A stretch of DNA of 40,654 bases, from the NCBI GenBank assembly GCA_016744905.1, contig JADGDM010000021.1:1-40654 (forward strand), written 5' to 3'. The translations under genes were made by a program, and so were the position numbers. Below are positions 12,786 through 37,126 of the stretch, one piece after another (positions within the stretch are counted from its first letter, which is position 1; the number at the start of each line of letters is the position of its first letter). Origin of the DNA: Sulfurimonadaceae bacterium. Its GTDB lineage: Bacteria > Campylobacterota > Campylobacteria > Campylobacterales > Sulfurimonadaceae. The notes beneath the pieces were generated by a model. That model worked only from the letters and a program-made list of their open reading frames with translations, was not told the origin of the DNA and ran no database searches.

Positions 12786-13553
12786 ATGGTTACAATGAAA
12801 GACTTATTAGAATGTGGTGTACACTTTGGACACCAAACTCGTCGTTGGAATCCGAAAATGAAAAAATATATTTTTGGTGTTCGTAAAAATATCTATATTA
12901 TCGATTTACAAAAAACTTTACGTTTTTTCCGTGCTACTTACCAAATCGTTATGGACGCAGCAGCTGAAGGTCAAATGGTACTTTTCGTTGGTACGAAGAA
13001 ACAAGCACGTACAGCAGTAAAAGAAGCAGCTATCTCTTGTGGTATGCCTTACGTAGATAACAGATGGTTAGGTGGTATGCTTACTAATTACCCAACTATT
13101 CAAAAATCAATCCGTAAACTTGAAGTGATTCAAGAAATGCAAGAAAATGGTCAAATTGATCTTCTTACGAAAAAAGAAGCATTAATGCTTGGTCGTAAAA
13201 AAATTAAACTTGAGCAATATCTTGGTGGTATCAAAAATATGAAACGTCTTCCAGATATGATGTTCGTTGTTGATGCTGTTAAAGAGCATATTGCTGTTCT
13301 TGAAGCACGTAAACTAGGAATCCCTATCGTTGCGCCACTAGATACTAACTGTGACCCAGATCTTATCACTTACCCAATTCCTGGTAATGATGATGCTATC
13401 CGTTCAATTCAACTTTTCTGTAAAGAAATGGCTGAAGCAATTAACGAAGGGAAAGCTCAATTAGCTGCTGATGAAGAAGTAGTTGAAGAACAAACTGAAG
13501 AAGTAGCAGCAGAAGCTCCAGCAGCTGAAGAAGCTAAAACAGAGGAAGCGTAA
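12786..13553 (+). CDS. rpsB: 30S ribosomal protein S2
   Basis: A 255-residue S2 protein of the small ribosomal subunit, needed for the binding of S1 and for initiation. The N-terminal [20 protein letters not shown] and the [12 protein letters not shown] and [19 protein letters not shown] segments are diagnostic. The last 25 or so residues form an Ala/Glu-rich acidic tail beyond the usual core. AAAGGACC precedes the ATG. tsf follows after two bases, the standard rpsB-tsf arrangement, so the two are translated together. Codon use is strongly biased, in keeping with high expression. Confidence 0.98.
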
Positions 13554-13555
13554 TC

Positions 13556-14620
13556 ATGGCGGTTACTGCAGCTGACGTTAAAAAACTTCGTGGAGCAACT
13601 GACGCTCCAATGATGGACTGTAAAAAAGCACTTGTTGAAAATGACGGTGACTTTGATAAATCAGTAGCTTGGTTACGTGATCGTGGTATTGCTAAATCAG
13701 CTAAAAAAGCTGATCGTGTTGCAGCTGAAGGTTCAGTTGGACTTAAAATTGCTGATGATTTTTCTAAAGCAAGTATCGTTGAGATTAATTCTGAGACAGA
13801 TTTTGTTGCTAAAAATGATGCTTTCAAAAGCCTTGTTTCTACAACTGCTGCTCAAGTATTCGCTACAGAAGCTGCCGATACTGCTGCACTACGTTCAACA
13901 CAAATGGATGGTAAAGACTTTACAGATTATTTTGATGAGTCTGTTGCTAAAATTGGTGAAAAAATCGAAGCACGTCGTATGGCAACTTTAGTGGGTAATG
14001 AAACAACTGTTGTTAATGGTTATGTTCACTCAAATACACGTATTGGTGTTGTAGTAGCTATCACTTGTGATTCAGCTAAAACTGCAAGCACAATGAAAGA
14101 TATGGCTAAAAATGTTGCGATGCACGCATCTGCAATGAAGCCAACGACTCTTTCTTACGCTGACTTTGATGCTGCTTATGTAGCTGATGAAACTGCTGGT
14201 CGTATCGAAGCGATCAAAAAAGAGAATGAAGAGCGTGTTCGTCTTAAAAAACCACTTATTAATGTACCTGAGTATGTTTCTATGTGTCAATTGACTGCAG
14301 ACGTTTTAGCTAAAGCTGAAGAGAACATCAAAGCTGAGCTTAAAGCACAAAACAAACCAGAAAAAATTTGGGATAAAATTGTACCAGGACAGGTAGCGCG
14401 CTACATTGCTGACAATACAACTTTAGATAAAGAACAAGCACTTGTTGATCAAAACTATGTTTTAGATGAAAAACTTAGTGTTGCACAAGCTGTTGAAGCA
14501 GCAGGTAAAGCTGCTGGTGGAACTGCTTCTATCTCTGCATTTGTTCGCCTTGAAGTAGGTGAAGGTATCGAGAAAAAAGAAGACGATTTCGCTGCAGAAG
14601 TTGCTGCACAAATGGGATAA
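13556..14620 (+). CDS. tsf: Elongation factor Ts
   Basis: A 354-residue nucleotide-exchange factor that releases GDP from EF-Tu. The N-terminal UBA-like domain carries [16 protein letters not shown], and the EF-Tu-contacting core carries [15 protein letters not shown]. The protein is longer than the E. coli form (about 280 residues), with two copies of the core subdomain in the middle, as I recall for Campylobacterota EF-Ts. Its ribosome site lies inside the end of rpsB. A strong terminator begins immediately after the stop codon and closes the rpsB-tsf operon. Confidence 0.97.
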
Positions 14621-14697: not shown

Positions 14698-15342
14698 ATG
14701 AATCTTTTAAATGCAAAAAATCTATCACATAATTTCGAATACCCACTTTTTTCTAATATTAATTTAGAACTTAACTCTGGTGAATCGATAGCAATCATTG
14801 GTGAAAGTGGTAGTGGCAAATCTACACTACTTCATATACTTTCGAGTTTATTAAAGCCTGATGAGGGTGAAGTGAATATTCTTGAAAAAGATATCTATAG
14901 ACTTAACGTAGCTGACTTGGTTCAGATACGACGCGATGACCTTGGACTAATATTTCAATCACATTACCTTTTTAAAGGCTTTAGTGCACAAGAAAATTTA
15001 GAAATAGCAGCATTATTAAGTCATAAAACAATTGATAAAAAACTATTGAATCGTTTAGATGTTGGGCATGTTATAAGTCAAAAAGTGACAGAACTCTCTG
15101 GTGGTCAGCAACAACGAATATCTATTGCACGGATACTAACAAAAAAACCACGGATAATTTTTGCAGATGAGCCTACTGGTAATTTGGATAATAAAACTTC
15201 ATTAGAAGTTATGAATATATTTTCTGAATTTATTAAAGAGAACAATGCAGCTATGATTCTAGTGACACATAACGAAGAATTTGCCTTTTCATGTGATAAG
15301 GTGTTTAAGCTCCACAACCAAGAGTTAGAACAGATTAAATAG
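14698..15342 (+). CDS. ABC transporter ATP-binding protein, FtsE/LolD type
   Basis: A 214-residue ATPase subunit of the LolD/FtsE/MacB class, which powers release of lipoproteins or other substrates together with an FtsX-like membrane subunit. Walker A is GESGSGKSTLL, the Q-loop is in GLIFQSHYLF, the signature is LSGGQQQRISIARIL, Walker B is IIFADEPTGNLD and the H-loop is in VTHNEEF. No membrane subunit is adjacent in this window, so the partner must be elsewhere. The same gene sits between tsf and fliR in Campylobacter as I recall. No ribosome site is seen before the ATG; see the leaderless note. fliR starts 7 bases after its stop. Confidence 0.9.
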   Translation: MNLLNAKNLSHNFEYPLFSNINLELNSGESIAIIGESGSGKSTLLHILSSLLKPDEGEVNILEKDIYRLNVADLVQIRRDDLGLIFQSHYLFKGFSAQENLEIAALLSHKTIDKKLLNRLDVGHVISQKVTELSGGQQQRISIARILTKKPRIIFADEPTGNLDNKTSLEVMNIFSEFIKENNAAMILVTHNEEFAFSCDKVFKLHNQELEQIK

Positions 15343-15349
15343 GCAAAAT

Positions 15350-16114
15350 ATGGAATGGGCAGTTATATTTGCAGAATCTAACGTTGTTGGATTTATACTA
15401 CTCTTTTTTCGCTTCGGTGCACTATTTATGGCACTCCCCATCTTTTCACATCAAAATATCCCTTTGACTGTTAAAGTAAGTATGGCATTTTTCTTCACTG
15501 TGGTGTTTTATCCTATTATGCCAGCACTTCTTTTTGATGTGAATATTTATACAATTTTAGGGGCTGTTTTTAGTGAGCTACTCTTTGGACTTAGTATTGG
15601 ATTGGTGATCCAAATTACTTATAATATTATCACTTTTGCAGGGGGACAAATCTCTTATATGATGGGCTTTTCTATGGCTTCAGCTATCGACCCTCAAACA
15701 GGTGTATCTATGCCTATTATTTCTCAGTTTTTAGCTATGTTGGCCTTAATGTTGTTACTTAGTTTAGATATGCATCATTGGGTACTTCTTTTTGTTAATG
15801 AGTCTTTATCTGCTATACCTCTAGGTGGGTTTATTTTGGAGCAAAACCTTTTTGACTATCTCATTCGTGCCTCAACCAATATGTTTGTGGTTGGATTTAT
15901 GATTGCTTTTCCTATTATTGCCCTCTCATTTTTACAAGATATAATTTTTGGTATGTTGATGAAGACTATGCCTCAGTTTAATCTACTTGTTATTGGTTTT
16001 CCGATTAAAATAGGGGTGGCCTTGGTGGTTATTATCGCAACATTGGCTTCTACAATGCTCATCATGCAAAGAGAGATATTGGCGTCATTTAATTGGCTTG
16101 AAAATCTTTTTTAA
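15350..16114 (+). CDS. fliR: Flagellar biosynthetic protein FliR
   Basis: A 254-residue polytopic membrane protein that with FliP and FliQ forms the export gate of the flagellar type III secretion system. Features typical of FliR are the N-terminal FFRFGALFMALPIFSH, the TYNIITFAGGQISYMMGFSMA segment, SAIDPQTGVSMPIISQF, and the later MKTMPQFNLLVIGFPIKIGVAL. Length matches the family. It is probably co-transcribed with the preceding ABC ATPase. The 3' end overlaps by 26 bases the end of the convergent PLD-like gene. Confidence 0.95.
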   Translation: MEWAVIFAESNVVGFILLFFRFGALFMALPIFSHQNIPLTVKVSMAFFFTVVFYPIMPALLFDVNIYTILGAVFSELLFGLSIGLVIQITYNIITFAGGQISYMMGFSMASAIDPQTGVSMPIISQFLAMLALMLLLSLDMHHWVLLFVNESLSAIPLGGFILEQNLFDYLIRASTNMFVVGFMIAFPIIALSFLQDIIFGMLMKTMPQFNLLVIGFPIKIGVALVVIIATLASTMLIMQREILASFNWLENLF

Positions 16115-16607: not shown

Positions 16608-18902
16608 ATGAAAATTTTACTTCTAAATGATAATCCAGTAGTACAAAAACTTGTTACTCTAAGTGCACAAAAACATGGTGACGAATTAGAAAATGTTTCT
16701 AACATAGAGGAGATTTCAAGTTCAAATTGTGATCTATTAATAGTAGATGATGCTGTGTATACTTCGACTATTTTAGAAGAGATTTCAGCTAAGATAAAAT
16801 ATAAACAGAGCCTTTTTATGCGTTCTCGTGGTATAGAAGACCATGAAGGATTTGACACCTACCAAAGTAAACCATTTTTACCAACTGATTTAGTAGAACT
16901 ATTTTCAAATATTTCACAAAGTCTCGAAGGGGATGAATTCGAAGATGATGATGCAGAAATTAATTTAGATGATGAAATCGCTGCCTTAGATGATTTAGAT
17001 TTTGATGAAGGTGAAGAAGTATTAAATTTAGATTCTGCCTTAGATGAATTGAGCTTAGATGATTTAGATGATGAAGTGAGTCTTTCTGTCTTAGATGAAG
17101 ATGAAGTTGAAGAGGTTAAAGAGTTACTAGAAGAAGAGCTTGAAGAGAGTGGTTTAGAAGAGGGTCCAACTTTAAATGAGTCTAGTATTGACGAAGTAAA
17201 CGCTGCATTGGAAGAGTTAGATGATGAGGAACTTAGTTTAGATGACCTTGATTTAGATGAAGAAGCAACTGAAGAATCTGAATTTAGTTTAGATGACTTA
17301 AATCTTGATGAAGTAGATTTGGGGACTGAAGACTCAGTAGTTGAAGAAGAGATTAGTGAAGATTCAGAAGAAGAGCTTTCTTTAGATGACTTAGACTTAG
17401 GTGAAGAAGAAGCGACAGAAGAAGAACCAGTGCTTGAAGAAGAGTCTGAACTTAGTTTAGATGATTTAGACCTTGGTGATGAAGAAGAACTGAGTTTGGA
17501 TGAACTGGATTTGGGTGTTGAAGACTCTGCAGTTGAAGAAGAGCTTTCTTTAGATGACTTAGACTTAGGTGAAGAAGAAGAGACAGAAGAAGAACCAGTG
17601 GTTGAAGAAGAGCTTTCTTTGGATGATTTAGACTTAGGTGATGAAGAAGTGGCAGAAGAGGAACTAAGTCTTGATGAACTGGATTTGGATGTTGAAGAAG
17701 TATCGAGTGCAGATGACTTAAGTGAAGAGAGTACTGAAGAGGAAGAAGAACTAAGTCTTGATGAACTGGATTTTGGTGTTGAAGACTCAGCAGTTGAAGA
17801 AGAGCTTTCTTTAGATGACTTAGACTTAGGAGAAGAAGCGACAGAAGAAGAACCAGTGGTTGAAGAAGAGCTTTCTTTGGATGTTGAAGAAGTATCGAGT
17901 GCAGATGACTTAAGTGAAGAGAGTACTGAAGAGGAAGAAGAACTAAGTCTTGATGAACTGGATTTGGGGGCTGAAGACTCAGCACTTGAAGAAGAGATTA
18001 GTGAAGACTCAGAAGAAGAGCTTTCTTTAGATGACTTAGACTTAGGTGAAGAAGAAGCGACAGAAGAAGAACCAGTGGTTGAAGAAGAGTCTGAACTTAG
18101 TTTAGATGATTTAGGTCTTGGTGATGAAGACGAACTGACTCTGGATGAAGTGAATTTGAGTACCGAAGACTCAGTGGTTGAAGAAGAGCTTTCTTTGGAT
18201 GACTTAGACTTAGGTGATGAAGAAGTGACAGAAGTAGAAGAAGAACTTAGTTTAGATGAAGTAAATTTAGATGTCGAAGAACCAGTGCTTGAAGAGGAAG
18301 AACTAAGTCTTGATGAACTTGAATTAGGTGATGAAAGTACTGAAGACTCAAATCTTGATGACGAAGTAGTAGATGAGACACCACTAAGCGAAGAAGCTTT
18401 AGATGAATCACTTGAGTCATTAGAAGCTGAGATAGAAGATGCAGTTGAGAGTCTTAGTGAAGAAGAACTTAATGCAGATGCGAATGAAGAGATGTTGGTT
18501 GAAATCGCTGAAAATGAGCTTGATACAGATGAAATGGAACTCCTTGGTGCTGGTAATGATTTAGATGTCTTAAATACGCGTGATCTGAAAATGGCTCTGG
18601 GTGAAGAAGTAGAAGATCTAAGTGTAGATGCTGCAGGAGAAGTAGATATTACTATCTCTGGTAATGAGTTGGCCTCTGAAGCACTAGATGAAGTCTTGGC
18701 CTTTGAAGAAGATGAAAGTGATGATCAATCTGTCGAAGATTTTGAACAAGCTTGTGCCGATATTTCATTAGAAAATGAAGAGAAGAATCAAGATACTTTA
18801 ACCCTTTTAACTGAGTTACTGGCGGCATTAAATAATCCAGAACAGGCAGAAAAATTTAGGGATTTAAATATTAATATTAATATTAACATCGAGGAGAAAT
18901 AG
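16608..18902 (+). CDS. chePep: ChePep-like polar chemotaxis/flagellar regulator with degenerate receiver and acidic repeats
   Basis: The 764-residue protein matches the ChePep family (poly-E-rich protein, HP0322 in Helicobacter pylori; highly acidic protein in Campylobacter). In H. pylori ChePep sits at the flagellated pole and controls the direction of flagellar rotation. Residues 1-105 form a receiver-like domain: NDNP replaces the usual acidic pair, CDLLIVDD gives the phospho-site region (D47/D48), and SKPF gives the conserved lysine. Residues about 105-600 are acidic repeats built on ELSLDDLDLG separated by EEE/EEPVVEE. A less repetitive C-terminal region (600-764) ends in a run of Asn-Ile dipeptides (NINININI). 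Gene order (fliR upstream, gmk downstream) supports orthology. Exact DNA repeats make its length prone to change. Confidence 0.88.
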   Translation: MKILLLNDNPVVQKLVTLSAQKHGDELENVSNIEEISSSNCDLLIVDDAVYTSTILEEISAKIKYKQSLFMRSRGIEDHEGFDTYQSKPFLPTDLVELFSNISQSLEGDEFEDDDAEINLDDEIAALDDLDFDEGEEVLNLDSALDELSLDDLDDEVSLSVLDEDEVEEVKELLEEELEESGLEEGPTLNESSIDEVNAALEELDDEELSLDDLDLDEEATEESEFSLDDLNLDEVDLGTEDSVVEEEISEDSEEELSLDDLDLGEEEATEEEPVLEEESELSLDDLDLGDEEELSLDELDLGVEDSAVEEELSLDDLDLGEEEETEEEPVVEEELSLDDLDLGDEEVAEEELSLDELDLDVEEVSSADDLSEESTEEEEELSLDELDFGVEDSAVEEELSLDDLDLGEEATEEEPVVEEELSLDVEEVSSADDLSEESTEEEEELSLDELDLGAEDSALEEEISEDSEEELSLDDLDLGEEEATEEEPVVEEESELSLDDLGLGDEDELTLDEVNLSTEDSVVEEELSLDDLDLGDEEVTEVEEELSLDEVNLDVEEPVLEEEELSLDELELGDESTEDSNLDDEVVDETPLSEEALDESLESLEAEIEDAVESLSEEELNADANEEMLVEIAENELDTDEMELLGAGNDLDVLNTRDLKMALGEEVEDLSVDAAGEVDITISGNELASEALDEVLAFEEDESDDQSVEDFEQACADISLENEEKNQDTLTLLTELLAALNNPEQAEKFRDLNINININIEEK
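17684..17965 (+). repeat. 90-bp exact direct repeat within chePep, offset 192 bases
   Basis: Bases 17684-17773 recur unchanged at 17876-17965. The offset is a multiple of three (64 codons), so recombination between the copies would remove or add whole repeat blocks in frame. Many shorter copies of the ELSLDDLDLG-coding unit fill 17230-18330. Confidence 0.9.
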
Positions 18903-25924: not shown

Positions 25925-26851
25925 TCAAGGAAGCGAAAACCCCTTGATAATATCTTCTGCTGAGGTATTGTTTAAAAGTACACAATAGTCCTGTGCGCTA
26001 AAGAGCAATAACTCTTTACTTTGTAGACTGCTTAGTTCTTTAGAAAATCCTCTTTTTGAAAATAGCGCAATAACATTGGGTCTGAGATCAATCAAGGCAC
26101 ACTTGTCTTCTATTTTATGTAGCTCTTTTTTATTGACCTTATGATTGGTCCACTTACATTCTCCAACAATTATTTTCTCATCTTCAGTGCGCGCTAGAAT
26201 GTCTATCTCTACTTTGGAATCCCAATAACTGTGTGAATGAATAATTTTTTCTGGATAAACCTTTTGTAGTAATAGATTGGATAATTCTTCGTAAACTAAG
26301 CTACTGTATGAGTTGTGTCGTTCTCTAAATCGATTAAAAAACTTTTCATAATGTCTATGTTTGATATCATGCTCAAAGGGATAAACAAAGTAGAACCAAA
26401 AACGTAAAAAAGGGGTAGTGAAACGTACCTTGTCTGATATACGATGGCGCGCCAGTGAACGTTTAATCATCTGTCCCTTCTTTATTCGTTTTTGGGACTC
26501 TTGAGTATATTCAAAACTTAGTAGATTGTTGTTTTTAAACATATCTAACGCCTCTAAACCCTCTTTTTCATTGATGTTTGCTTTTGCAAAAGCTGAATAT
26601 ACACGTCGATCACCTTGAGCTATTTTTGATAAGAGCTTATGATAGTGTGAATCACCCATTGTCAGTAGTAAAACTTGAGCATAGAGTTGATCATAATTAT
26701 CTAGAATTTTTGTTTTAATAAGGGTTTCTACATCAAGGTCAACATCTAATGGAAAACCGAGTCCTCCAAAAATACTAAAATATTCAATCTGCTGTTCCAT
26801 ATCATTGGGAAAGTTTTGTGCATAAAATGAGCGAAATAATTTATCTAACAT
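25925..26851 (-). CDS. Stand-alone DUF234/PD-(D/E)XK nuclease-like protein
   Basis: The 308-residue protein corresponds to the C-terminal half of DUF234 archaeal/bacterial AAA-type ATPases, but has no P-loop. The N-terminal region is helical with a winged-helix-like part (RRVYSAFAKANINEKEGLEAL), followed by the family motif PFLRFWFYFVYP. The C-terminal nuclease-like core has VEIDILA and ECKW: D217, E231 and K233 give the complete PD-(D/E)XK signature, so it could cut or bind nucleic acid. The natural partner ATPase is not adjacent. The start is set at ATG 26851; an upstream TTG would add five residues. It is convergent with the J-domain gene and divergent from the giant lipoproteins. Confidence 0.75.
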   Translation of the reverse strand: MLDKLFRSFYAQNFPNDMEQQIEYFSIFGGLGFPLDVDLDVETLIKTKILDNYDQLYAQVLLLTMGDSHYHKLLSKIAQGDRRVYSAFAKANINEKEGLEALDMFKNNNLLSFEYTQESQKRIKKGQMIKRSLARHRISDKVRFTTPFLRFWFYFVYPFEHDIKHRHYEKFFNRFRERHNSYSSLVYEELSNLLLQKVYPEKIIHSHSYWDSKVEIDILARTEDEKIIVGECKWTNHKVNKKELHKIEDKCALIDLRPNVIALFSKRGFSKELSSLQSKELLLFSAQDYCVLLNNTSAEDIIKGFSLP

Positions 26852-26942
26852 AATGAGAGTATACAAAAAAATGTTTCAATTCAACTCGAATTTTTCTATT
26901 TAAGGTGTGATAAAAATATAATTATTACCTCTTGTATCTTCT

Positions 26943-26954
26943 TGTGATAAAATT
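26943..26954 (+). promoter_or_regulatory. Probable promoter of giant lipoprotein 1 (TGTGATAAAATT)
   Basis: The 12-base TGTGATAAAATT lies 46 bases before the ATG at 27001 and recurs exactly before the paralogous gene at 30045. It reads as an extended -10 (TGN with TAAAAT). The shared sequence suggests common transcription control of the two genes. Confidence 0.45.
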
Positions 26955-27000
26955 ACATATTAGATTTATTTATAAAATAAATCACGTAAGGAAACATTAT

Positions 27001-29889
27001 ATGACAAAAATTATTGGTTCATTATTAGCACTTTTATTGATATCAGGTTGTGGTGATAGCACTACGGAAGAGGCTACACCAAGTTCAAAGCCAAAAGTGG
27101 TTAAAGATCCTGTTGTTACAGATCCAGAAGATGAAGAGTGTTCCTGGTATAACCCTTTTTGTAGTGATGAGGCTGAGGCGATTGTAACAGAACAAGCACT
27201 AACTGCCCGTTTAACTGATGCTGCATTAGAAGCAGACTCTGCAGCTGACTTTGCAGTAGAAGGCTTAGATATGGCAGTCGGTTATGTTATTGACGAATAT
27301 TTCCCAAGTTTTATGTCTGGCATGATGCATGACTCTCGAACGGCAAGTGATGGATACTTAAATCCTGCTAATTTGGTAGAGAGCAGTACAACACTTTATG
27401 ATTATATGATCGACTTTTATGATGCAGCCGTTGCGTTAGTGAGTGCTCCACAATTAAGAGCAGTGCAATTACGTGCTGAAGAGATAAGTATTATTGAAAT
27501 GATTATTAATGAAATTTACAACATTATTATGGGTTGGTTTTGGCCAAGTGATGAGCCTGAAGTACCAGTATATATTGATCCTTCCGATATGATTGATCCA
27601 AGTATTGCTGTTGATTTTAATAGTGTTGGCCTTGATCTTAGATCACAAATCTTTTATGTGGCGTCATCAACGTATATGACCATTACTATGGATGCTGAGA
27701 TGCAAACAGGTCGTGGAGAGATTGGTTTCGGTATTGGTGCTGATTTTACATATTCAGTCAAATCTGATGGTAATGTTTCATTGTATATGGATGGAGATTA
27801 TACTATTGAGATGGATTATTATGATCCTGATTATTGTATCGCAGTACGAATGTTTGATCATGAAACAGGTATCTTACATGATGCGTATTGGTTTAGTGAT
27901 GAAGACGTGTATGATGACGCATCTAATGTTAAAAAAGCTGAAACTCTGTGTTTTATTCGTCGTTTAGGATACAGTGCCCCGGTTGTAGCAACAGATGGTG
28001 TCCTTGAGCCAATTAAAGACGAGCGCGCTGGACATGCACCAGTAGCTGGAAGTACAACTGCTGATATGGTTAATCAATTGATTAATGGTGTTGCTAGAAC
28101 AGCAGATGTAACAGATGCTAAATACTTTGCTCGTAAAATGCGTCATGGTATTTTCTCTATCTATACTACCAACGGTCAAACAGATACGCTTCAAGCGACT
28201 GAAACAGAAAAAGTGATGAGAGAGTTACTACCACTAGCCGCTTCAAGTGGAACAGGAATGGCAGACCTTATGACCGGGGCTTACGATTCAAGTATCGCTT
28301 TTCAAGAAGAGGTAAATATTGATTTAAATGATTCTATTACTGAAGTTAATGGCCGTTTAGATGCATTAATAGTAGCGACCTCACAAGCAATGGACAGAAC
28401 AACATCTGACACTGGATATCATGGAGTTTCAAATACAACATCATATGGAGACATTGTAGAGTTTAAGGCTGAAAATATAGATTTAAGTATTAGGGCCCTC
28501 TTTAGTAACAGTGTTGATGCTGATATTGTTATGACGGTAAGTAACCCAGCAGATAATGGACGTACAGCAGACATTCTTTTACAAACACATATTACAACCA
28601 ATGTAATAGGCGAGTCAGTTATAGAATTTAAACAAGTTGATTCTGCACAATCTGTTAATTATGTGAGTGCTGCTGAATATCGCTTAGATGTAACGAACTT
28701 TAAGTATGAAAGACAGCAAGGTTTAATGACTATCAATGGATTTGGATGGATGGGAAGTGACAGTACTTCTAAACTACTATTTGATAATTATGAAGTATTG
28801 GCTACATTTGAAGAAGAACCAGAGATAGCACTTTTAAAATTTAGTGCAACAGTTGATGGTAGTATTACTACACAAAGTGGTAGAAGCTTTGTAGGGGTCT
28901 TAGTTTTTGATGGAGATAATACAAGTAATTCTAAAATGGATGGTATTCTAAACGGAATTAACAGTGAGCCAAAGATTGAGGGTGTTATTAAAACATCTCT
29001 TAATTATGCAGAGATGGAATCATGGTACAACGATAATGGTAGTAATGGAGATCTTAATAATATTGGCGATCAGAGTTATTATATGAACGTTAATATTGAT
29101 AAATCTGATAAACATGTAGGTGTAGATATGCTGGTACTACGTGACGATACTCAAGATCTTTGGAATTACACTTTGAAAGATCTTAATGTTAGTGATCAGT
29201 ATGGAACGCTATCTGCACAAAGTGTTTACGTGGTTCAAAATGGAGTAAGTACTATTCTTGAAACCTTAGATAAAGTAGCATTAAGTGGTATGAATTTAGA
29301 TTCTGATATCAATGCATTAATCAACTTAGGTTGGGATGTAGCCAGTGATTTTAACAAAATTGGTATTGAAGGATTACAGGTTGTTATGCAACCAGAGTCT
29401 GGTGATGTTAATATTAATACTACGGTTCATGTTGAGAACCTTGGTGGAACAATGAGTGCAGATATGGTGGCCACTTATGATTACGCAGAAACTCACCTTA
29501 CTACAGAGGGTGACTTTACAACAGAAGTAGACACTTCAAGTGGTTCAAATACTTACTCAAATACTTTTACAACTAAAGGGGCAATACAAGTAGATAATGT
29601 CTTTAATTACCTTTATGAGCTAGAGTATACTGATGATGTTCAATATATTTTATTTACTCGTGAAGACAGTATTTATCAGATGGGATTTATTTTAAGAGAT
29701 AGTGAAATTACTGGTGGAGATTCATATGGGGTCTTGGCTGATTTTACGATGAATACTGAGTACGACATTTTAGAATCAATGCGTATTTATAATACTGAGG
29801 ACACTGAGTTAGGCCATTATCAGCGCGCAGATAATGCACTTCAAGTCATCTTTTCAGATGAAGTAAAAGAGTACCTTTATCTTTACTAA
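27001..29889 (+). CDS. Giant lipoprotein 1 of a tandem paralogous pair
   Basis: The 962-residue product has lipobox LISGC with lipidated C17. The start is ATG 27001, with AAGGAAA ahead of it; an earlier in-frame start at 26932 would put 23 residues before the signal peptide and is rejected. An acidic linker leads to a helical segment, then a long, beta-rich region. The family is not recognised. Shared with the next gene are DAKYFARKMRHGIFSIYTTN, a SIAFQEEV segment, a DNNIGDQ-type segment, YELEYTDD near the end and the final EYLYLY. The aromatic C-terminus and alternation suggest a beta structure at or across the outer membrane. Lipid-anchored surface location is inferred. A perfect 11-bp hairpin follows. 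Confidence 0.75.
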   Translation: MTKIIGSLLALLLISGCGDSTTEEATPSSKPKVVKDPVVTDPEDEECSWYNPFCSDEAEAIVTEQALTARLTDAALEADSAADFAVEGLDMAVGYVIDEYFPSFMSGMMHDSRTASDGYLNPANLVESSTTLYDYMIDFYDAAVALVSAPQLRAVQLRAEEISIIEMIINEIYNIIMGWFWPSDEPEVPVYIDPSDMIDPSIAVDFNSVGLDLRSQIFYVASSTYMTITMDAEMQTGRGEIGFGIGADFTYSVKSDGNVSLYMDGDYTIEMDYYDPDYCIAVRMFDHETGILHDAYWFSDEDVYDDASNVKKAETLCFIRRLGYSAPVVATDGVLEPIKDERAGHAPVAGSTTADMVNQLINGVARTADVTDAKYFARKMRHGIFSIYTTNGQTDTLQATETEKVMRELLPLAASSGTGMADLMTGAYDSSIAFQEEVNIDLNDSITEVNGRLDALIVATSQAMDRTTSDTGYHGVSNTTSYGDIVEFKAENIDLSIRALFSNSVDADIVMTVSNPADNGRTADILLQTHITTNVIGESVIEFKQVDSAQSVNYVSAAEYRLDVTNFKYERQQGLMTINGFGWMGSDSTSKLLFDNYEVLATFEEEPEIALLKFSATVDGSITTQSGRSFVGVLVFDGDNTSNSKMDGILNGINSEPKIEGVIKTSLNYAEMESWYNDNGSNGDLNNIGDQSYYMNVNIDKSDKHVGVDMLVLRDDTQDLWNYTLKDLNVSDQYGTLSAQSVYVVQNGVSTILETLDKVALSGMNLDSDINALINLGWDVASDFNKIGIEGLQVVMQPESGDVNINTTVHVENLGGTMSADMVATYDYAETHLTTEGDFTTEVDTSSGSNTYSNTFTTKGAIQVDNVFNYLYELEYTDDVQYILFTREDSIYQMGFILRDSEITGGDSYGVLADFTMNTEYDILESMRIYNTEDTELGHYQRADNALQVIFSDEVKEYLYLY

Positions 29890-29897
29890 TACTATTT

Positions 29898-29925
29898 ACA
29901 AGTAGTAGTTATATCTACTACTTGT
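29898..29925 (+). terminator. Hairpin between the two giant lipoprotein genes
   Basis: A perfect 11-bp stem (ACAAGTAGTAG / CTACTACTTGT) with a 6-base loop lies 9 bases after the stop. There is no T-run behind it, so it may act as a weak terminator or protect the 3' end of the message. Confidence 0.55.
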
Positions 29926-30005
29926 GATAAAAAACTGTTTCATTTCTCCTCATATTTTATTTCTTAATACATCAAAAAAACTTATAAAGCTCTCTCGTTT
30001 ACCTC

Positions 30006-30017
30006 TGTGATAAAATT
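30006..30017 (+). promoter_or_regulatory. Probable promoter of giant lipoprotein 2 (TGTGATAAAATT)
   Basis: This is an exact copy of the 12-base element found before giant lipoprotein 1, placed 28 bases before the ATG at 30045. It indicates that the second gene has its own promoter after the intervening hairpin. Confidence 0.45.
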
Positions 30018-30044
30018 GTAAGACGTTAACTACAAGGACATACT

Positions 30045-33000
30045 ATGATTTTAAAACTTTTTGCTTTAACCTTCTCTCTTTTTATTTTAAGTGGATGTGG
30101 TGAAAACTCTGATGAGACTGCTGTTCCACAAAACACTACTGCTAAAGAGATTCCTATTGTTATAGATAGTGAAGCTTCTTTAGCCGATCAGATGAGCCGT
30201 AATGTAGAGACTGCAGATAATTATGATGAGTTTGCATTAGAGTCGATGAACTCTATTCTGGGCTATGTAGTTGAAGAGTATGTCCCAAGTTTTTTAGAAT
30301 CTTATGTATTAGAAAGTGATTCGTTTACGGCAGAGGTCTTGGTTGAAAATGAAACTATTGCAGCTTCATTACAATCTTTTTATGAGGAAGAGACAAACTT
30401 TTTCTCTCCACTTCTTCGTGGGAGTGAAGACTCGACCTTAATGGATATTGTCTATGCCATTATAGATGAGTTACAAAATATGCTTACAACGTGGTTAAGT
30501 TCATTTTTCTATGGTGAAGAGAGTGAAGAAGTTCCAATCGATAGAAATGATACTTATGAGGTAGATCCAACACTTCCTGTAGGTTTCGCACTACCGATAA
30601 TCGCAGGTAAAACTTTTCATGTTATCTCTAACGTAGCTGACATGCGTGTTGATATGAGCACAGATGGTTTGAGTGGCGTAGGTGTTATGGGTATCTTAAG
30701 TATGAGCTTTACTGACAGCATTGATGCAAATGACGATTTAATTATCAAAACAAATTTGATGGGTGATTATAAAATTGTTATGACATATCGTGATAAAAGT
30801 TACTGTATTGCGGCAGATGCTATTGATGAATCAGGTACGGTTTATGAATCATATTGGTTTACTTATAAAAGTGATATGGAAAAAGCAACAAGTGTAAGCA
30901 GTGCACGTGATTTGTGTTATATTCACTCAGCAGAGTACAATGACTCTAAAGTAGAGATTGATGAAGGTGAATTAGAAACTATTGAAGATGTGCGCACTGG
31001 ACATGAAGTTCAAACAGGCAGTACAACCACAGAGATAGTTGAAGCACTTATCAGTGGTATTACTACTGTGGCTGATTATAGTGACGCAAAATACTTTGCA
31101 CGTCAACTGCGTCATGGTGTGTTTTCACTTTATACCACTAATGGAAAAGAAGAGACTGTTCAGACAAAAGAGACTGAAAATATCATGAGAGAGTTAATGC
31201 CTTTAGGTGCTTCAAGTGCTATAGGGATGCAAGACCTTTTAAGCGAAGCTTTTGATTTAAGTATCGCTTTTCAAGATGAGGTAACGGCGGATTTAAATAA
31301 TACATTTAATGCTATGAATCCACGCCTTAGCGCGCTGGCAAATGCAACTGATGCAGCAATGCAGCAAACTATGGATTCTGATAATTATTATGGAAGTGCG
31401 ACTTCAAGTTTTGGTGATAAGGTAGAGATGGGGATTACTGACATGGATACCAACATCTGTTTGGTTTTCTTTTTATGTGAATCAAGTGTTGATGCAACTG
31501 TAAATATGCGTATTAGTAATCCAGGAACCAATGGTAATTATGCTGATATTGAATTTAATTCACGTATCAATGCAACGTCTATGGATATTAACAGTATCAA
31601 TTTCTCAAGTGTTCAAGCATCTCAAGATCTTAATATTATAGGAGCAAATGGATATAGATTGGAGATTGATTATTTTAAATATCATCGTGGTAATGGAACA
31701 CTTGACCTACAAGGTAAAGGTTCTATTTCTGATGTTGATGGTGGATCAAATGCAACGACTGCGGTACTAGATAGCTATGATATCCGTGTATATCTTCAAG
31801 AGCAAGGCACACTAAATTTTGTTTTCAAAAGTATCAGTGCGGCACTTGATGGATCAATTACTACAGCGCTTGGAAAAGCATTTGATGGGACAATGTATTT
31901 TGATAAAACATCAACAGAAAATAATGAACTCAATGGTACCTTAAGTGACAGTAGTAGTGATATTGTTATTGATGGAACCATGAAGGCTTCTTTGACGTAC
32001 GCAGATATTGATCTTTGGATGAATGGACATGCAGATGTTGGTGTTGAAGAAGGACTTCCATATCTAATTGATGCCAATGGTAATAAAGAGTTGGTTGAAT
32101 CGTTGACAAATAATGGTCGCATAGAAGTAAGAACTTTTGAGACTTATGATAACTCTTATACGTGTGAAAAAGTAGAAGATGGCGTTTATAGCTGTAGCGA
32201 TTTTTCTAAGAGAGTAACTAAAACAATGAAGTTTACTACTCCAGATGAGTTACTACTGGTTAATACCAATGATGGTGATTATTACATTTTAAATATACAA
32301 AATGTTTTTTCTTACTCTCTTTCAGAACTTATTATGATGAGAGTCAGTGATAGACATATGGCGAATCTAAGTGAGTTTGATTATAGAGATGCAGATATTA
32401 ATAACGTCCGCTTAGCATCATCAGCAATCAATGAGCCGGTAGATATTAATAATATTGGCGATCAAAATTACCTTGTGAATGCAAAAATCACAAAAGAAAA
32501 TCAACTTTTTAGTGCAGATATGATGATGAGTCGTGATGAGACAGCGGATACTTGGACCTATACTATTTATGATTTAGTCATTAGTGATGATTATGGTCAA
32601 ATTAAAGCAGACGAAGCAAACTTGATTCAAAGTGGAAACAATGAGTTGGTGAATGTGGCTGAGGAGATGATTGTTAATGGTATGAATATGGACTTAGATC
32701 TTGATGCGCTGATGAATCTTGGTTTTGCAAGTGTAGAGGGCTTTGATTATATTAACCTTCATGGATTTGAGATGAGTATGATGGCCTCTTCAGGAGAAGC
32801 AAAAATCAAGACAAATTTCAATCTCATCAATCATGGTTCTCAGATAATTATGGATTCAAATGTGAGTTATGATTATGGAATGACACACTTTAATGCTCTT
32901 GCTGATTTTGATGTAGCGGTAACAACTGCTGGTGATGGTACTAAAACATATGACAGTGCATTTACATCAAAAGGTTTTATTCAAGCTGATGCTGTAGCTG

Positions 33001-33284
33001 ATTATGACTATGAGTTGGAGTATGCAACAGCAAAACAGACCCTATTGTTTACACGTAAAGATACAGGTTATCAAATGGGCTTTACGATGGATGAATCAGG
33101 TGTTCAAGGTGCAGACTCTTATGGTGTAAAAGCTGACTTTGTTATGAATGAAACTTTAGATGTCGTGGAAGCGATGACTATTAAAGACAGTGCGGGTACA
33201 ACACTGGGTTCATATAACAGAGCAACAGACGCACTGAAAGTATATTTTACAGATTCTACTACCGAGTATTTATATCTCTACTAA
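30045..33284 (+). CDS. Giant lipoprotein 2 of a tandem paralogous pair
   Basis: The 1079-residue product has lipobox ILSGC with C18. It follows giant lipoprotein 1 through most of its length: DAKYFARQLRHGVFSLYTTN, MRELMPLGASS, DLSIAFQDEV, DINNIGDQNYLVNAKI, YELEYATAKQTLLFTRKD and the terminal TEYLYLY. The main difference is an extra block of about 120 residues (near 665-790) containing CEKVEDGVYSCSDFSK, with a cysteine pair likely to form a disulfide. Function is unknown. The tandem arrangement shows gene duplication followed by divergence and one domain insertion or loss. AAGGA precedes the ATG, and a terminator follows. Confidence 0.75.
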   Translation: MILKLFALTFSLFILSGCGENSDETAVPQNTTAKEIPIVIDSEASLADQMSRNVETADNYDEFALESMNSILGYVVEEYVPSFLESYVLESDSFTAEVLVENETIAASLQSFYEEETNFFSPLLRGSEDSTLMDIVYAIIDELQNMLTTWLSSFFYGEESEEVPIDRNDTYEVDPTLPVGFALPIIAGKTFHVISNVADMRVDMSTDGLSGVGVMGILSMSFTDSIDANDDLIIKTNLMGDYKIVMTYRDKSYCIAADAIDESGTVYESYWFTYKSDMEKATSVSSARDLCYIHSAEYNDSKVEIDEGELETIEDVRTGHEVQTGSTTTEIVEALISGITTVADYSDAKYFARQLRHGVFSLYTTNGKEETVQTKETENIMRELMPLGASSAIGMQDLLSEAFDLSIAFQDEVTADLNNTFNAMNPRLSALANATDAAMQQTMDSDNYYGSATSSFGDKVEMGITDMDTNICLVFFLCESSVDATVNMRISNPGTNGNYADIEFNSRINATSMDINSINFSSVQASQDLNIIGANGYRLEIDYFKYHRGNGTLDLQGKGSISDVDGGSNATTAVLDSYDIRVYLQEQGTLNFVFKSISAALDGSITTALGKAFDGTMYFDKTSTENNELNGTLSDSSSDIVIDGTMKASLTYADIDLWMNGHADVGVEEGLPYLIDANGNKELVESLTNNGRIEVRTFETYDNSYTCEKVEDGVYSCSDFSKRVTKTMKFTTPDELLLVNTNDGDYYILNIQNVFSYSLSELIMMRVSDRHMANLSEFDYRDADINNVRLASSAINEPVDINNIGDQNYLVNAKITKENQLFSADMMMSRDETADTWTYTIYDLVISDDYGQIKADEANLIQSGNNELVNVAEEMIVNGMNMDLDLDALMNLGFASVEGFDYINLHGFEMSMMASSGEAKIKTNFNLINHGSQIIMDSNVSYDYGMTHFNALADFDVAVTTAGDGTKTYDSAFTSKGFIQADAVADYDYELEYATAKQTLLFTRKDTGYQMGFTMDESGVQGADSYGVKADFVMNETLDVVEAMTIKDSAGTTLGSYNRATDALKVYFTDSTTEYLYLY

Positions 33285-33291
33285 GGTGATA

Positions 33292-33317
33292 AGTGAGCGT
33301 TAGCGCGCTGACTTTTT
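33292..33317 (+). terminator. Intrinsic terminator after giant lipoprotein 2
   Basis: AGTGAGCG / CGCTGACT-type arms (one G-G mismatch) around TTAGCG form a stem at 33292-33313, followed by TTTTTA. It also overlaps the end of the polymerase gene remnant on the reverse strand. Confidence 0.7.
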
Positions 33318-33416
33318 ATCTTCACTTTTCTTCACCAACTCACTCCCAAACTTCAAACTATCCAAACCATACTTCTCTGCAATCCACTTTTTAATATTTT
33401 TAACTTCTTTAAGGTT
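33300..33416 (-). pseudogene. Remnant of the 3' end of a dinB-type polymerase gene
   Basis: Reading the reverse strand gives an open stretch of about 38 codons ending KYGLDSLKFGSELVKKSEDK...SAR and a stop. The polymerase at 35843-37126 ends KYGLDSLKFGSELVKKR. Upstream of KYGLDS the remnant reads NIKKWIAE where the intact gene reads HKVRE, so it comes from a diverged homologue rather than a recent copy. No start codon or polymerase body is present. It is a gene fragment left by recombination or insertion. Confidence 0.75.
33328..33378. repeat. Direct repeat copy A (dinB 3' end)
   Basis: This 51-base segment matches 35850-35900 with three mismatches by eye. The match ends abruptly on the 3' side. 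The two copies, 2522 bases apart in the same orientation, bracket the lipoprotein/hydrolase cassette. Confidence 0.85.
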
Positions 33417-33421
33417 TTATA

Positions 33422-33440
33422 GGGGGGGGTGTGCTAAAAT
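33422..33440 (+). promoter_or_regulatory. Promoter with G8 tract before the cassette
   Basis: A run of eight G (33422-33429) lies five bases upstream of TAAAAT (33435-33440), a good -10 for the gene starting at 33472. The tract sits in the -35/-10 spacer, so slippage during replication would change spacing and promoter strength. G-tracts of this length are known phase-variation sites in Campylobacterota. Confidence 0.5.
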
Positions 33441-33471
33441 ACAATCCAAATTTAAATGTTAGGAATTGTTA

Positions 33472-34347
33472 ATGAAAAAACTTTTTAAAATAGTATGGAT
33501 ACTGAGTTTAAGTTTAATCTTCGTCGCTTGTAATAAAGAGGATTTAAAAATAGAAGGTTTATCTCAAATCAATCTTGATGAGATACAGAGTTATAATGTA
33601 ATCTTTGATAGTGAAGATAATGTAACAATGAGTAGTTATGTGTGGAGCGTCACCCCAAAAGATGCAAACTATACATTAAGTGCAACACATACCCAAGATG
33701 TTTTATTTATAGCACACACACAAGGTGAGTACACTCTAAATGTTAGTGTAGAGATAAAAGGTAAAAAACTAAATACAGAACTTATCATCACCGCCATAAA
33801 ACCTGAAGTCGTCAACGGCTACACCCTCCCACCTGAACCCGATAAAACTCTAAATAACGCAACACTTCTAGGCGTGGATAGTAATGATAATGGTATTAGA
33901 GATGATGTAGAAATCTTTATTATTAAACGTTATGCGCAAGACCCAGATTATTCTAAAACTAAAACAGCACTCTCTTTACAGTATGCGTACTCTATGCAGA
34001 AAATATTAGAAAACCCTATTGCTGAGAGTAAAAAGTACTCTGATGACGCTATTGATTGTGAATCGTATTGGTTTGATAAAGTGCAGAAAGATATTTATCA
34101 AAAAATTATAGATTTAGATAAAAAAGACTTTAAGGAATCTATTCTATTATCTGTAGAAGCTACCAAATGGAGAACAAAGCATGAGGTGTTTAATGATACA
34201 ACAACTAAGGATAAAATCTTTAACACCCGTGAACGTATTAATCAGAAGTTCTCTTACAATGCCTCTTTGAGTGGCAGTATTTTTAATGGAAGAGGGGAAG
34301 CGACTATAGATAGTTGCCAAATAAATATAGATGGGCTGGGAGAGTAA
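33472..34347 (+). CDS. Lipoprotein with Ig/PKD-like domain and EF-hand-like calcium motif
   Basis: The 291-residue product has a lipoprotein signal ending FVAC (C20). Residues about 25-110 look like an Ig/PKD-type beta-sandwich (YVWSVTPKDANYTLSA, GEYTLNVSVEIKGK). The motif GYTLPPEPDKTLNNATLLG is followed by VDSNDNGIRDDVE, a DxNxNGxxD-type calcium loop. The C-terminal part is helical with a few cysteines. ATG 33472, six bases after AGGAA, is chosen; the in-frame TTG two codons earlier is rejected. It is 1 base upstream of the secreted hydrolase gene, so they form a two-gene operon. I do not know its function; a partner or inhibitor of the hydrolase is possible. Confidence 0.72.
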   Translation: MKKLFKIVWILSLSLIFVACNKEDLKIEGLSQINLDEIQSYNVIFDSEDNVTMSSYVWSVTPKDANYTLSATHTQDVLFIAHTQGEYTLNVSVEIKGKKLNTELIITAIKPEVVNGYTLPPEPDKTLNNATLLGVDSNDNGIRDDVEIFIIKRYAQDPDYSKTKTALSLQYAYSMQKILENPIAESKKYSDDAIDCESYWFDKVQKDIYQKIIDLDKKDFKESILLSVEATKWRTKHEVFNDTTTKDKIFNTRERINQKFSYNASLSGSIFNGRGEATIDSCQINIDGLGE

Positions 34348-34348
34348 G

Positions 34349-35818
34349 ATGAAAAAAATAATTTTATTTATAGGTGTATTGCTCGCTTTAAATAGTTCAC
34401 TAATGGGTTTAACAATTGATGAGTGTAAAACAGATATCTATTTCGGAAATGGAGTCTGGAATGCTCCTGAAGATGCAGAAAAAGGAAGACAGAAATTACA
34501 AAAAGAGATTGTTGTTTCCAAATTAATACAAGGTGATCCAAAACTCCAAGCCAAATATGGGGAAGTAAAACTCCAATATAACTGGGGGCAAGGTGGTATG
34601 TTAGACGTTTTAGAGACATATTACCAACTAAAAGAAGCTGGACAAGTGAATGATTATCAATTTTTTGCAGTTATATTGATATTAACAAAAGGAAATGCAC
34701 CTGTTACTTTAAGTGCTGTTACTACACAACAATTAATGGAGTCGTTCACCAGTGATTGGGAGCAGGGAAATGTAGATGAGATGTGGAATAAGTATTATGA
34801 GGAGAGTTTTAAACTCTCTCATAAGGTGCTACTGATATCACACTCACAAGGAAATCTCTTTGCAAATCGTATTCATGATAGTATAGTCCCAACACAGTAT
34901 CAAGATTATTTTGCAAATCTACAAATCGCTTCACCTGCTAGTGAAGTGAAAGCACTAAAAGGTGACTATGTTACCGGCTCAGTAGATCCTGTTATTAATC
35001 CTATTCCAGGGAGTATGGACGCCAATGCGGTATTAGACACTTCTGGGCATGCCTTGGTTGAAGCCTATCTAAGTTCTAGTGACACTTTAGAAAAGATAGT
35101 TAGTAAAACGAGACAACTTCTCAATACCCTTGATAGCGAATCATCCCAATGGCAAACCGATCAAGAGATAGCCAAAGATACAGTAGATTATCGTATTACA
35201 GTAAAACATCGATTTGATGAGAGTGTCATCATGAATGAAGAGGTTTATCCTTTTGAAGCATCAAAAAAGCTCTACCAAACAAAAGACATCCTTGACAATG
35301 ATGTGTGGGTAAAAGCGAGTTGCGGTGGAGAAAAAGTACTTACTACATGGGAAAATCAAAAAGAGAGTGAGTTCTATCTTCTTCAAGGAACTGATGAGAT
35401 GATTAGTATTGGAGGTGTATTTACATTTATAGTAGAGTATTACTACAAAATAGCTAACTACACTGAGTACAATCCAAAAGGGAGTATTGCTAATAAATTA
35501 ATTACACCAGATGGTAGTTGTGGTTATGAAAGTGGAAGTGGATATAGAAATATAAGTTCTTTATCATCTGATGAAGTATATCTTGGAGCGGGCTTAGATG
35601 GAGTTCGAAATGAATATGAAATATATTTTTATAACTCTTTTCCTAGTACCTTTAGTGGAGCAATAAGCAAACAGTTAAATTGCTATCTTGGTCAAAAAAA
35701 TGATTCAATAGAGTCTTATAATATTTTAAATAGAAGCAATGAGACGCGTAGAATTATTGAAGATGATAAGGGCATACGAAGATACATCTTAGAACAAGAG
35801 TATACTTTAAAAATATAA
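34349..35818 (+). CDS. Secreted alpha/beta-hydrolase-like protein
   Basis: The 489-residue product starts at ATG 34349 (the in-frame ATG at 34331 lies inside the preceding gene) and has a signal peptide (IILFIGVLLALNSSLMG). Residues 160-169 read VLLISHSQGN, a nucleophile elbow with S166, and H234 in SGHALVEAYL is a plausible catalytic histidine. An esterase or lipase activity in the periplasm or outside the cell is inferred. The C-terminal 250 residues are beta-rich and not recognised, with several cysteines. Strict linkage to the lipoprotein gene (one base apart) points to joint action. The pair lies between two copies of the dinB 3' end. Confidence 0.7.
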   Translation: MKKIILFIGVLLALNSSLMGLTIDECKTDIYFGNGVWNAPEDAEKGRQKLQKEIVVSKLIQGDPKLQAKYGEVKLQYNWGQGGMLDVLETYYQLKEAGQVNDYQFFAVILILTKGNAPVTLSAVTTQQLMESFTSDWEQGNVDEMWNKYYEESFKLSHKVLLISHSQGNLFANRIHDSIVPTQYQDYFANLQIASPASEVKALKGDYVTGSVDPVINPIPGSMDANAVLDTSGHALVEAYLSSSDTLEKIVSKTRQLLNTLDSESSQWQTDQEIAKDTVDYRITVKHRFDESVIMNEEVYPFEASKKLYQTKDILDNDVWVKASCGGEKVLTTWENQKESEFYLLQGTDEMISIGGVFTFIVEYYYKIANYTEYNPKGSIANKLITPDGSCGYESGSGYRNISSLSSDEVYLGAGLDGVRNEYEIYFYNSFPSTFSGAISKQLNCYLGQKNDSIESYNILNRSNETRRIIEDDKGIRRYILEQEYTLKI

Positions 35819-35820
35819 AG

Positions 35821-35839
35821 TGTGGCGCTATGCGCTACA
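35821..35839. terminator. Hairpin between the hydrolase gene and the dinB-type gene
   Basis: An 8-bp stem (TGTGGCGC / GCGCTACA, one G-T wobble) with a 3-base loop lies between the convergent stops at 35818 and 35843. Reverse-strand transcripts meet T-rich sequence after it; it probably serves both genes. Confidence 0.65.
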
Positions 35840-35842
35840 TAG

Positions 35843-37126
35843 TCATCTCTTCTTCACCAACTCGCTCCCAAACTTTAAACTGTCCAAACCATACTTCTCT
35901 CTAACCTTATGCACTTTTTTACTCAGTTCACTTTGCTCTATCTCATCCTCAAAACCGATGAGCGATAACTCACGACGTGAAATCTTTGTGAAGCTTCCAC
36001 AGCTCATGGAGAGGTGCATGATTTTAAGTGTTTTATAGGTGTCACTTTTATAAAAAAGGTCCAACATTAAATCTTTGAGTGCCTTTTCACTAAAAAGCGT
36101 ATTTCGACTTAGGTTGGCGTGGGTTTTATTACTTCTATCGTATTGAATCCCAAAGTGAAAGGTAGTAGGTACAACCTCATGTTTTAGTATGGCGTAGGCA
36201 AGATGGCGCGCTAAGATAATAACACGACGTTTCAGTTCAACTCTATCAAGAGAGGGTTTAAAAGTACGTGAGATTCCTATGGACTTTCTGGGTGATTTGG
36301 TGACGATTTCAGCACTCTCATATCCAGCGACCTTACGGTATAGCTCTCTGGAGTAGGGCGTATGGTTATAAAGTAGTTCCTTAGCGCGTAAGAGCTGTCC
36401 TAAGGTGTTTATATTGTACTTATGTAGAAAGTTTTGCATAGCGCGTCCGATGCCAGCAAAGGTCTCTATAGAGATATTTTCTACAAAGGTGGGAATCTCA
36501 TGTTCATGAATGAGTTTACAGCCAAAAGGTTTGGCCATGGTAGTGGCGAGTTTAGCAATATGTTTTGATTTTGCGACACCGATAGAGACAGGAAGGTTTA
36601 AATCACGCTGTATCTCATGACGTAGTGTGTCTACAAAAAAAAGTGCCTCATCATCATTAACCCATCCTGAGAGATCTCCATAAAATTCATCAATACTGGC
36701 TTGCTCGATGAGCGGTATACGTTTTTGAAGATATTCATGGAGTGTATGGGACAGTTCTTGATACAGACGCATATTGGGTGCTTTGATGCGAAGATTTGGA
36801 CAGAGTCTAAAGGCTTCACTCAGACTCATCGCTGTTCTCACACCACGTGCACGCGCTTCATATGAAGAAGTGGTGATGATACCTCGGATAATGCCCTCTT
36901 CATCTCTAAACTTATCAATATCATTAACACTTGGATCATAAGTTTGAAAAAAAGAGCTGACAAAGGAACCACTGTTTTCATTACTGAAGCTTTGATTTCC
37001 ACTGTTTGTTGCAAAGATGTTTGTATCGCCTCGTCCGCCAACAGCCAGTGGAATACCACAGAGGGTTTTATCCAAGGTACGTTCAGCAGAGACAAAATAG
37101 GAGTCAAGATCGATATGTATTTTCAT
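35843..37126 (-). CDS. dinB: Y-family DNA polymerase (DinB/Pol IV type)
   Basis: A 427-residue translesion polymerase. The palm carries the metal-binding aspartate in KIHIDLDSYFVSAER and the SIDEFYGDLSG motif with the catalytic Asp-Glu. The fingers region contains TTSSYEARARGVRTAMSLSE. The helix-hairpin-helix thumb (IETFAGIGRAMQNFL) and little-finger domain follow. Between VGGRGD and IRGIITT there is an extra block of about 40 residues rich in Ser, Asn and Phe, absent from standard Pol IV but, as I recall, present in relatives from this class. There is no obvious beta-clamp peptide at the short C-terminus (SELVKKR). The 3' end is duplicated at 33300-33416. Confidence 0.88.
   Translation of the reverse strand: MKIHIDLDSYFVSAERTLDKTLCGIPLAVGGRGDTNIFATNSGNQSFSNENSGSFVSSFFQTYDPSVNDIDKFRDEEGIIRGIITTSSYEARARGVRTAMSLSEAFRLCPNLRIKAPNMRLYQELSHTLHEYLQKRIPLIEQASIDEFYGDLSGWVNDDEALFFVDTLRHEIQRDLNLPVSIGVAKSKHIAKLATTMAKPFGCKLIHEHEIPTFVENISIETFAGIGRAMQNFLHKYNINTLGQLLRAKELLYNHTPYSRELYRKVAGYESAEIVTKSPRKSIGISRTFKPSLDRVELKRRVIILARHLAYAILKHEVVPTTFHFGIQYDRSNKTHANLSRNTLFSEKALKDLMLDLFYKSDTYKTLKIMHLSMSCGSFTKISRRELSLIGFEDEIEQSELSKKVHKVREKYGLDSLKFGSELVKKR
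35850..35900. repeat. Direct repeat copy B (dinB 3' end)
   Basis: This is the in-gene copy of the 51-base repeat, encoding KYGLDSLKFGSELVKK at the end of the polymerase. It forms the right boundary of the cassette bracketed by copy A. Confidence 0.85.

Follow-up and report, generated by a model that had tools for sequence, protein, structure and literature searches.

A secreted hydrolase and lipoprotein gene pair bracketed by duplicated dinB 3' ends: probable acquisition of linear DNA at core genes of Campylobacterales

How does a two-gene unit that encodes no recombinase come to lie between two copies of the 3' end of a core gene? Here we address this question for a locus of a Sulfurimonadaceae bacterium, using a 40,654-nt stretch of DNA (the window) that is one entire contig (JADGDM010000021.1) of a 122-contig draft genome (GCA_016744905.1, G000). 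When the whole window was compared with itself, a direct repeat was found at 33325-33378 and 35847-35900, the two copies being identical at 50 of 54 bases and in the same orientation (E = 8.8e-16); an earlier note on this DNA had described it as a 51-base repeat with three mismatches, which is correct for those 51 bases. The near copy (35847-35900, minus strand) is the 3' end of intact dinB (35843-37126, minus strand), the target gene, which encodes a Y-family DNA polymerase and was assigned from its open reading frame, a PF00817 match (E = 2e-37) and syntenic orthologues in the family. The C-terminus of the polymerase in this copy reads EKYGLDSLKFGSELVKKR; the far copy (33325-33378, minus strand) translates as EKYGLDSLKFGSELVKKSEDKKSAR, and the aligned peptides are identical as far as the last residue. 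The base differences are almost all at synonymous third codon positions (5 of 5 in the codon-position count). No dinB-like sequence was found upstream of the far copy, in agreement with its description in the earlier note as a remnant whose upstream sequence departs from the intact gene. Past the repeat, the far copy is out of register with the dinB stop and then meets its own terminator-like hairpin (33296-33309), which also stands after the 30045-33284 gene; as the far copy differs after the repeat too, each copy has a separate downstream flank. The repeat match, the reading frame and the loss of homology upstream mark the far copy as a remnant of a dinB 3' end, putatively the native original end, and the near copy would be the donor-derived one. 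The 44-base core of the repeat, searched with its three variable sites as N and up to three mismatches, occurs at two sites in the 3.0 Mb genome, both at dinB, and the same search with the core reversed as a backward control gave no matches. The genome-wide search that the earlier note had proposed thus finds the core to be unique to the two dinB copies.

Between the copies lie two open reading frames and a promoter region, and neither gene is a recombinase, so that the earlier description of a two-gene interval without an integrase is upheld. The first gene (33472-34347, plus strand) encodes a protein with a signal peptide and lipobox, a PKD/Ig-like N-terminus and a C-terminal domain that is conserved and contains DSNDNGIRDDVE; the second (34349-35818, plus strand) encodes a secreted alpha/beta-hydrolase-like protein with an invariant HSQG (Ser166) and a variable C-terminus. 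Across the first family the Ig-like N-terminal domains vary and the C-terminal domain is conserved. The lipobox, read by eye, is apparently present in only some members, and the term lipoprotein is therefore valid for the gene of the window and not for the whole family. The second protein matched no Pfam or NCBIfam family, a PDB sequence search with it returned nothing, and its structure predicted from the single sequence was unusable (mean pLDDT 33.5); a PDB sequence search with the first protein gave weak CopC-like matches only. The two genes form a conserved unit, with their order kept, at unrelated loci in several Campylobacterales families. At four loci (L113, L201, L202 and L203) the first gene is duplicated alone or in tandem units, in the manner of orphan immunity genes.

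The surroundings of the repeat can be read against the gene order of the family, which runs gmk, argS, a nitrilase-like gene, a dnaJ-like gene, a homologue of the gene at 25925-26866, and dinB, the last two being directly adjacent in most genomes by synteny. In the window, 9 kb separates the 25925-26866 gene (minus strand), the usual direct follower of dinB in relatives, from dinB itself, and this space holds two large lipoprotein genes, the remnant and the pair. Because dinB normally adjoins the 25925-26866 gene, the block at 26867-35842 is, on the evidence of gene order, acquired DNA, with that gene at its other edge. The two large lipoprotein genes (26995-29889 and 30045-33284, together 26995-33284, plus strand) are paralogous, were evidently acquired as well, lie outside the repeat bracket and have no Pfam match; they occur solely within the acquired block. 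The junction is filled differently in other genomes, one example being a lipase-like lipoprotein of 687 aa, so it tolerates acquisitions. Identity of the dinB protein to the closest relatives sampled is only about 58%, no empty dinB site was found at sequence level among the genomes searched, and the comparison at this site is one of synteny with distant relatives. Fixed presence of both genes and both repeats throughout the genus, one of the contrary outcomes held out in the earlier note, was not seen, the genus being represented by this genome alone. An apparent duplicate dinB 3' end in one relative (L082) was rejected as a scaffold-gap artefact in which overlapping contig ends are separated by a run of N. 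Elsewhere in the window, many degenerate tandem repeats (17211-18349) lie within an acidic 764-aa open reading frame (16608-18902).

The arrangement at dinB recurs at other core genes. Comparing the two flanks of each pair locus with each other, we found six loci besides the window in which the pair is bracketed by a duplicated core-gene 3' end, the genes being named from a reading of their translations: ppa (L105, 6631-7118 and 10128-10614; 488 bp, 97.7% identical), tgt (L190; 63 bp, 95%), infA (L192 and L195, which have their junction in common and perhaps record a single event) and an rqcH-like gene (L197, 167 bp; L203, 207 bp, in the one-contig genome G024). A further locus, L106, records the event seen in L105 through its ppa remnant, its contig ending before the second copy. 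At each site the complete gene borders the pair on one side, and on the other stands a copy that lacks its 5' part and runs into native downstream sequence; the pair stands in either orientation relative to its target gene. Repeat lengths range from about 40 to 490 bp, the 54 bp at dinB being near the short end, and inspection by eye of the repeat edges at the dinB, ppa, tgt, infA and rqcH-like sites revealed no common sequence. In 964 kb of loci, a partly overlapping and non-random sample, direct repeats 1-8 kb apart nearly all surround these pairs. The same form of insertion is found in L192 around a histidine kinase gene, where the 3' end of rplQ is duplicated (13395-13603 and 15253-15462), and the mechanism is therefore not tied to the hydrolase-pair cargo. 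Where both flanks of a pair locus were available, roughly two thirds of the loci have no core-gene duplication, so the unit must also arrive or persist by other routes. Two contigs of one genome (G602; C39, locus L261, and C5, locus L262) each terminate in a tgt 3' end, the two copies being different, which is what a bracketed insertion left unassembled would produce. A repeat around the pair in L111 was set aside, being a RAYT (REP transposase-like) fragment, that is, a repeated transposase-type sequence and not a core gene.

Empty sites and, at tgt, a donor tract indicate how such insertions may arise. The tgt site is empty, with one copy, in G603 and G548, and the ppa site is likewise empty in G548, G569 and G603. 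In the intact tgt of G569, the stretch directly before the insert differs from that of G603 at 2 of 620 positions (99.7% identity), against 82 of 1000 (91.8%) in the preceding stretch, a step with P = 1e-15, which is indicative since the 620-nt boundary was picked after the identity profile had been viewed. The last ~620 nt show no rise in identity to the outgroups G548 and G398, so the stretch is not simply conserved. Over the 63 repeated sites, the far copy has three differences from G603 and the intact copy none, and the remnant and the region downstream of it show ordinary divergence from G603. To judge from these identities, a donor resembling G603 supplied the intact 3' part of tgt along with the insert, and the native copy is the stranded one; G603, the best match of the donor tract, is itself without the pair. 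The identity step and the native far copy imply homologous recombination inside the gene at one end of the incoming DNA and illegitimate joining at the other. Site-specific or Campbell insertion of a circle with 63 bp of tgt could not account for 620 nt of donor sequence and is disfavoured at this site.

A donor tract is seen at the tgt site only. The corresponding test at ppa gave no identity step; there, the two copies within one genome (G398) are 97.9% alike, compared with 93.6% between the remnants of two genomes (L106 750-1295, reversed), which suggests that the ppa repeat copies have been homogenised by gene conversion. At the rqcH-like sites the relatives are too diverged to tell donor from native sequence. 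Over all sites, 74 of the 99 differences between copies fall at third codon positions; the expectation under decay of ~0.46 is a rough estimate, and L197 and L203 between them account for about half the total. Taken singly, rplQ, infA and tgt gave no significant result in this comparison. The mostly synonymous differences fit two orthologues that were both functional before the event better than decay after insertion.

We consider it probable that the pair was acquired by homologous recombination of linear DNA in dinB combined with illegitimate joining, without the enzyme of a mobile element. Incoming linear DNA from a related bacterium would have carried a dinB 3' end of its own with the hydrolase/lipoprotein pair behind it; a homologous crossover would have taken place within the recipient's dinB, and the other end of the DNA would have been joined illegitimately about 54 bp before the end of that gene. 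The product would be a dinB with a donor-derived last part, next to it the pair, and beyond the pair the native 3' end, stranded there and ending in a terminator of its own, and neither integrase nor transposase would be needed. That the copy in the window arose in the same way as the tgt-type insertions is argued by analogy, because the cargo family, the geometry and the kind of differences are alike. The DNA was delivered, we infer, by natural transformation: this genome and the other hosts tested all carry a ComEC-family competence gene, which permits and does not prove transformation. Members of the family are also found in species without a reputation for being transformable.

The earlier note had likened the locus to integration that restores its target gene, and as an account of the outcome this holds, in that a complete 3' end is kept, the old end lies on the far side and the comparable ppa and tgt sites are empty. 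The same outcome, a restored 3' end and a stranded remnant with flanks differing on both sides, would follow from a small non-autonomous integrative element, for which a recombinase acting in trans would insert a circle with a replacement 3' end, in the manner of e14 and phage 21 at icd. Such an element is nevertheless quite improbable, and the passively mobilised cassette that the earlier note had envisaged is, as a site-specific unit, not supported: the target genes are five, used in either orientation, with repeats of about 40-490 bp, no common core and no recombinase between the repeats, and the tgt donor tract, at about 620 nt, is ten times the repeat length, more than a repeat-only circle could give. 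Host RecA might instead have acted on a circle, the unit looping out with a dinB 3' end and entering elsewhere by a single Campbell crossover. Bracketing by direct repeats agrees with this, and the ppa copies within G398, more alike than allelic copies, indicate that repeats may recombine; repeats of 54-63 bp are, however, short for efficient homologous recombination and the tgt donor tract exceeds the repeat, which makes this route unlikely.

The far copy might be the last trace of another, full-length dinB gene that is in decay at this position, and a divergent, partial dinB-like match does exist elsewhere in the genome (C21, 40% identity). A full second dinB in decay, which the earlier note had held out as a contrary outcome, was not seen; the homology ends abruptly at 54 bp despite 93% identity of the copies, there is no dinB similarity upstream, and other loci have the same truncated form at sites that are empty in relatives, all of which renders this origin very improbable. 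The slimmest chance is that of an assembly artefact, a concern raised by the draft state of the genome, by the window being a whole contig and by the scaffold-gap duplication in L082, but countered by copies that differ at 4 of 54 sites, by their differing flanks and by the same arrangement in G024 (L203), a genome assembled as one contig. The other possibility offered in the earlier note, recombination with foreign dinB-linked DNA, is the better-supported reading, at dinB itself by analogy.

The region upstream of the pair offers a hint about its expression. A promoter-like site (33416-33445, plus strand) has an 18-nt spacer containing a G8 tract (33422-33429) and is a candidate phase-variable promoter, although the promoter scan overall performed no better than on shuffles. 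Homopolymers of 8-9 G/C lie in the promoter region of the pair in the window and in L110, L111, L152, L153, L156, L190, L193, L196, L198, L199, L200 and L205, and across all loci examined nearly all G/C runs of at least 8 are found just upstream of such pairs. This concentration suggests that expression of the pair is phase-variable through slipped-strand control.

Parts of this picture are familiar from other systems. The elements e14 and phage 21 in icd bear an integrase and use one fixed target; as here, the DNA that enters brings a substitute 3' end for the host gene, one that differs mostly at synonymous positions, whereas the present units use several target genes and have no integrase between the repeats. 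Effector-immunity modules of the Vibrio cholerae type VI secretion system (T6SS) are displaced by recombination and leave remnants. Like them, the units described here are two-gene units that are exchanged, with stranded remnants and duplicates of the partner gene (compare L113, L201 and L202); unlike them, they occupy unrelated loci, and any toxic activity of theirs is hypothetical.

The arrangement corresponds to insertion with long target duplication, which later accounts trace to two Helicobacter pylori genomes (Nobusato et al., 2000, Gene 259:99, via PMC1643837 and PMC3154945). There too, and in the same phylum, a short gene unit without mobility genes lies between long direct repeats of the target; the repeats found here measure 54 bp at dinB and up to 490 bp at ppa. 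The cargo in H. pylori is, as far as that account goes, frequently and not necessarily restriction-modification genes (PMC1643837), whereas here it is the pair with the secreted hydrolase and, in one case, a histidine kinase, and the present cases further differ in using the 3' ends of core genes, in their diverged copies and in a donor tract visible at one site. Homology-facilitated illegitimate recombination, recorded for three naturally competent species and for conjugation in E. coli (PMC3240628), likewise has one homologous and one illegitimate end and uses linear DNA; the one-sided donor tract at tgt has this form, although our cases are inferred from natural genomes and the target is duplicated. 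Among the papers searched, those that use the term long target duplication included none with a title on Sulfurimonas or Sulfurovum.

It is tempting to extend these observations to a recombinase-free, phase-variable mobile module of two genes with a secreted product that spreads by natural transformation among Campylobacterota, settles downstream of core genes with their conserved sequence as its homology anchor, and persists as an addictive effector-immunity pair, a proposal we regard as speculative and rather doubtful in its entirety. More directly, the locus and its counterparts give a readable mechanism for the movement of genes without mobility functions between bacteria, in which the homologous and the non-homologous side can be told apart from the combination of repeat, empty site and donor tract. 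Recurrent cases in other Campylobacterota thereby allow a test of a mechanism put forward in 2000 on the basis of two H. pylori genomes, and they add a so far unnamed, predicted family of secreted hydrolases with a probable phase-variable promoter.
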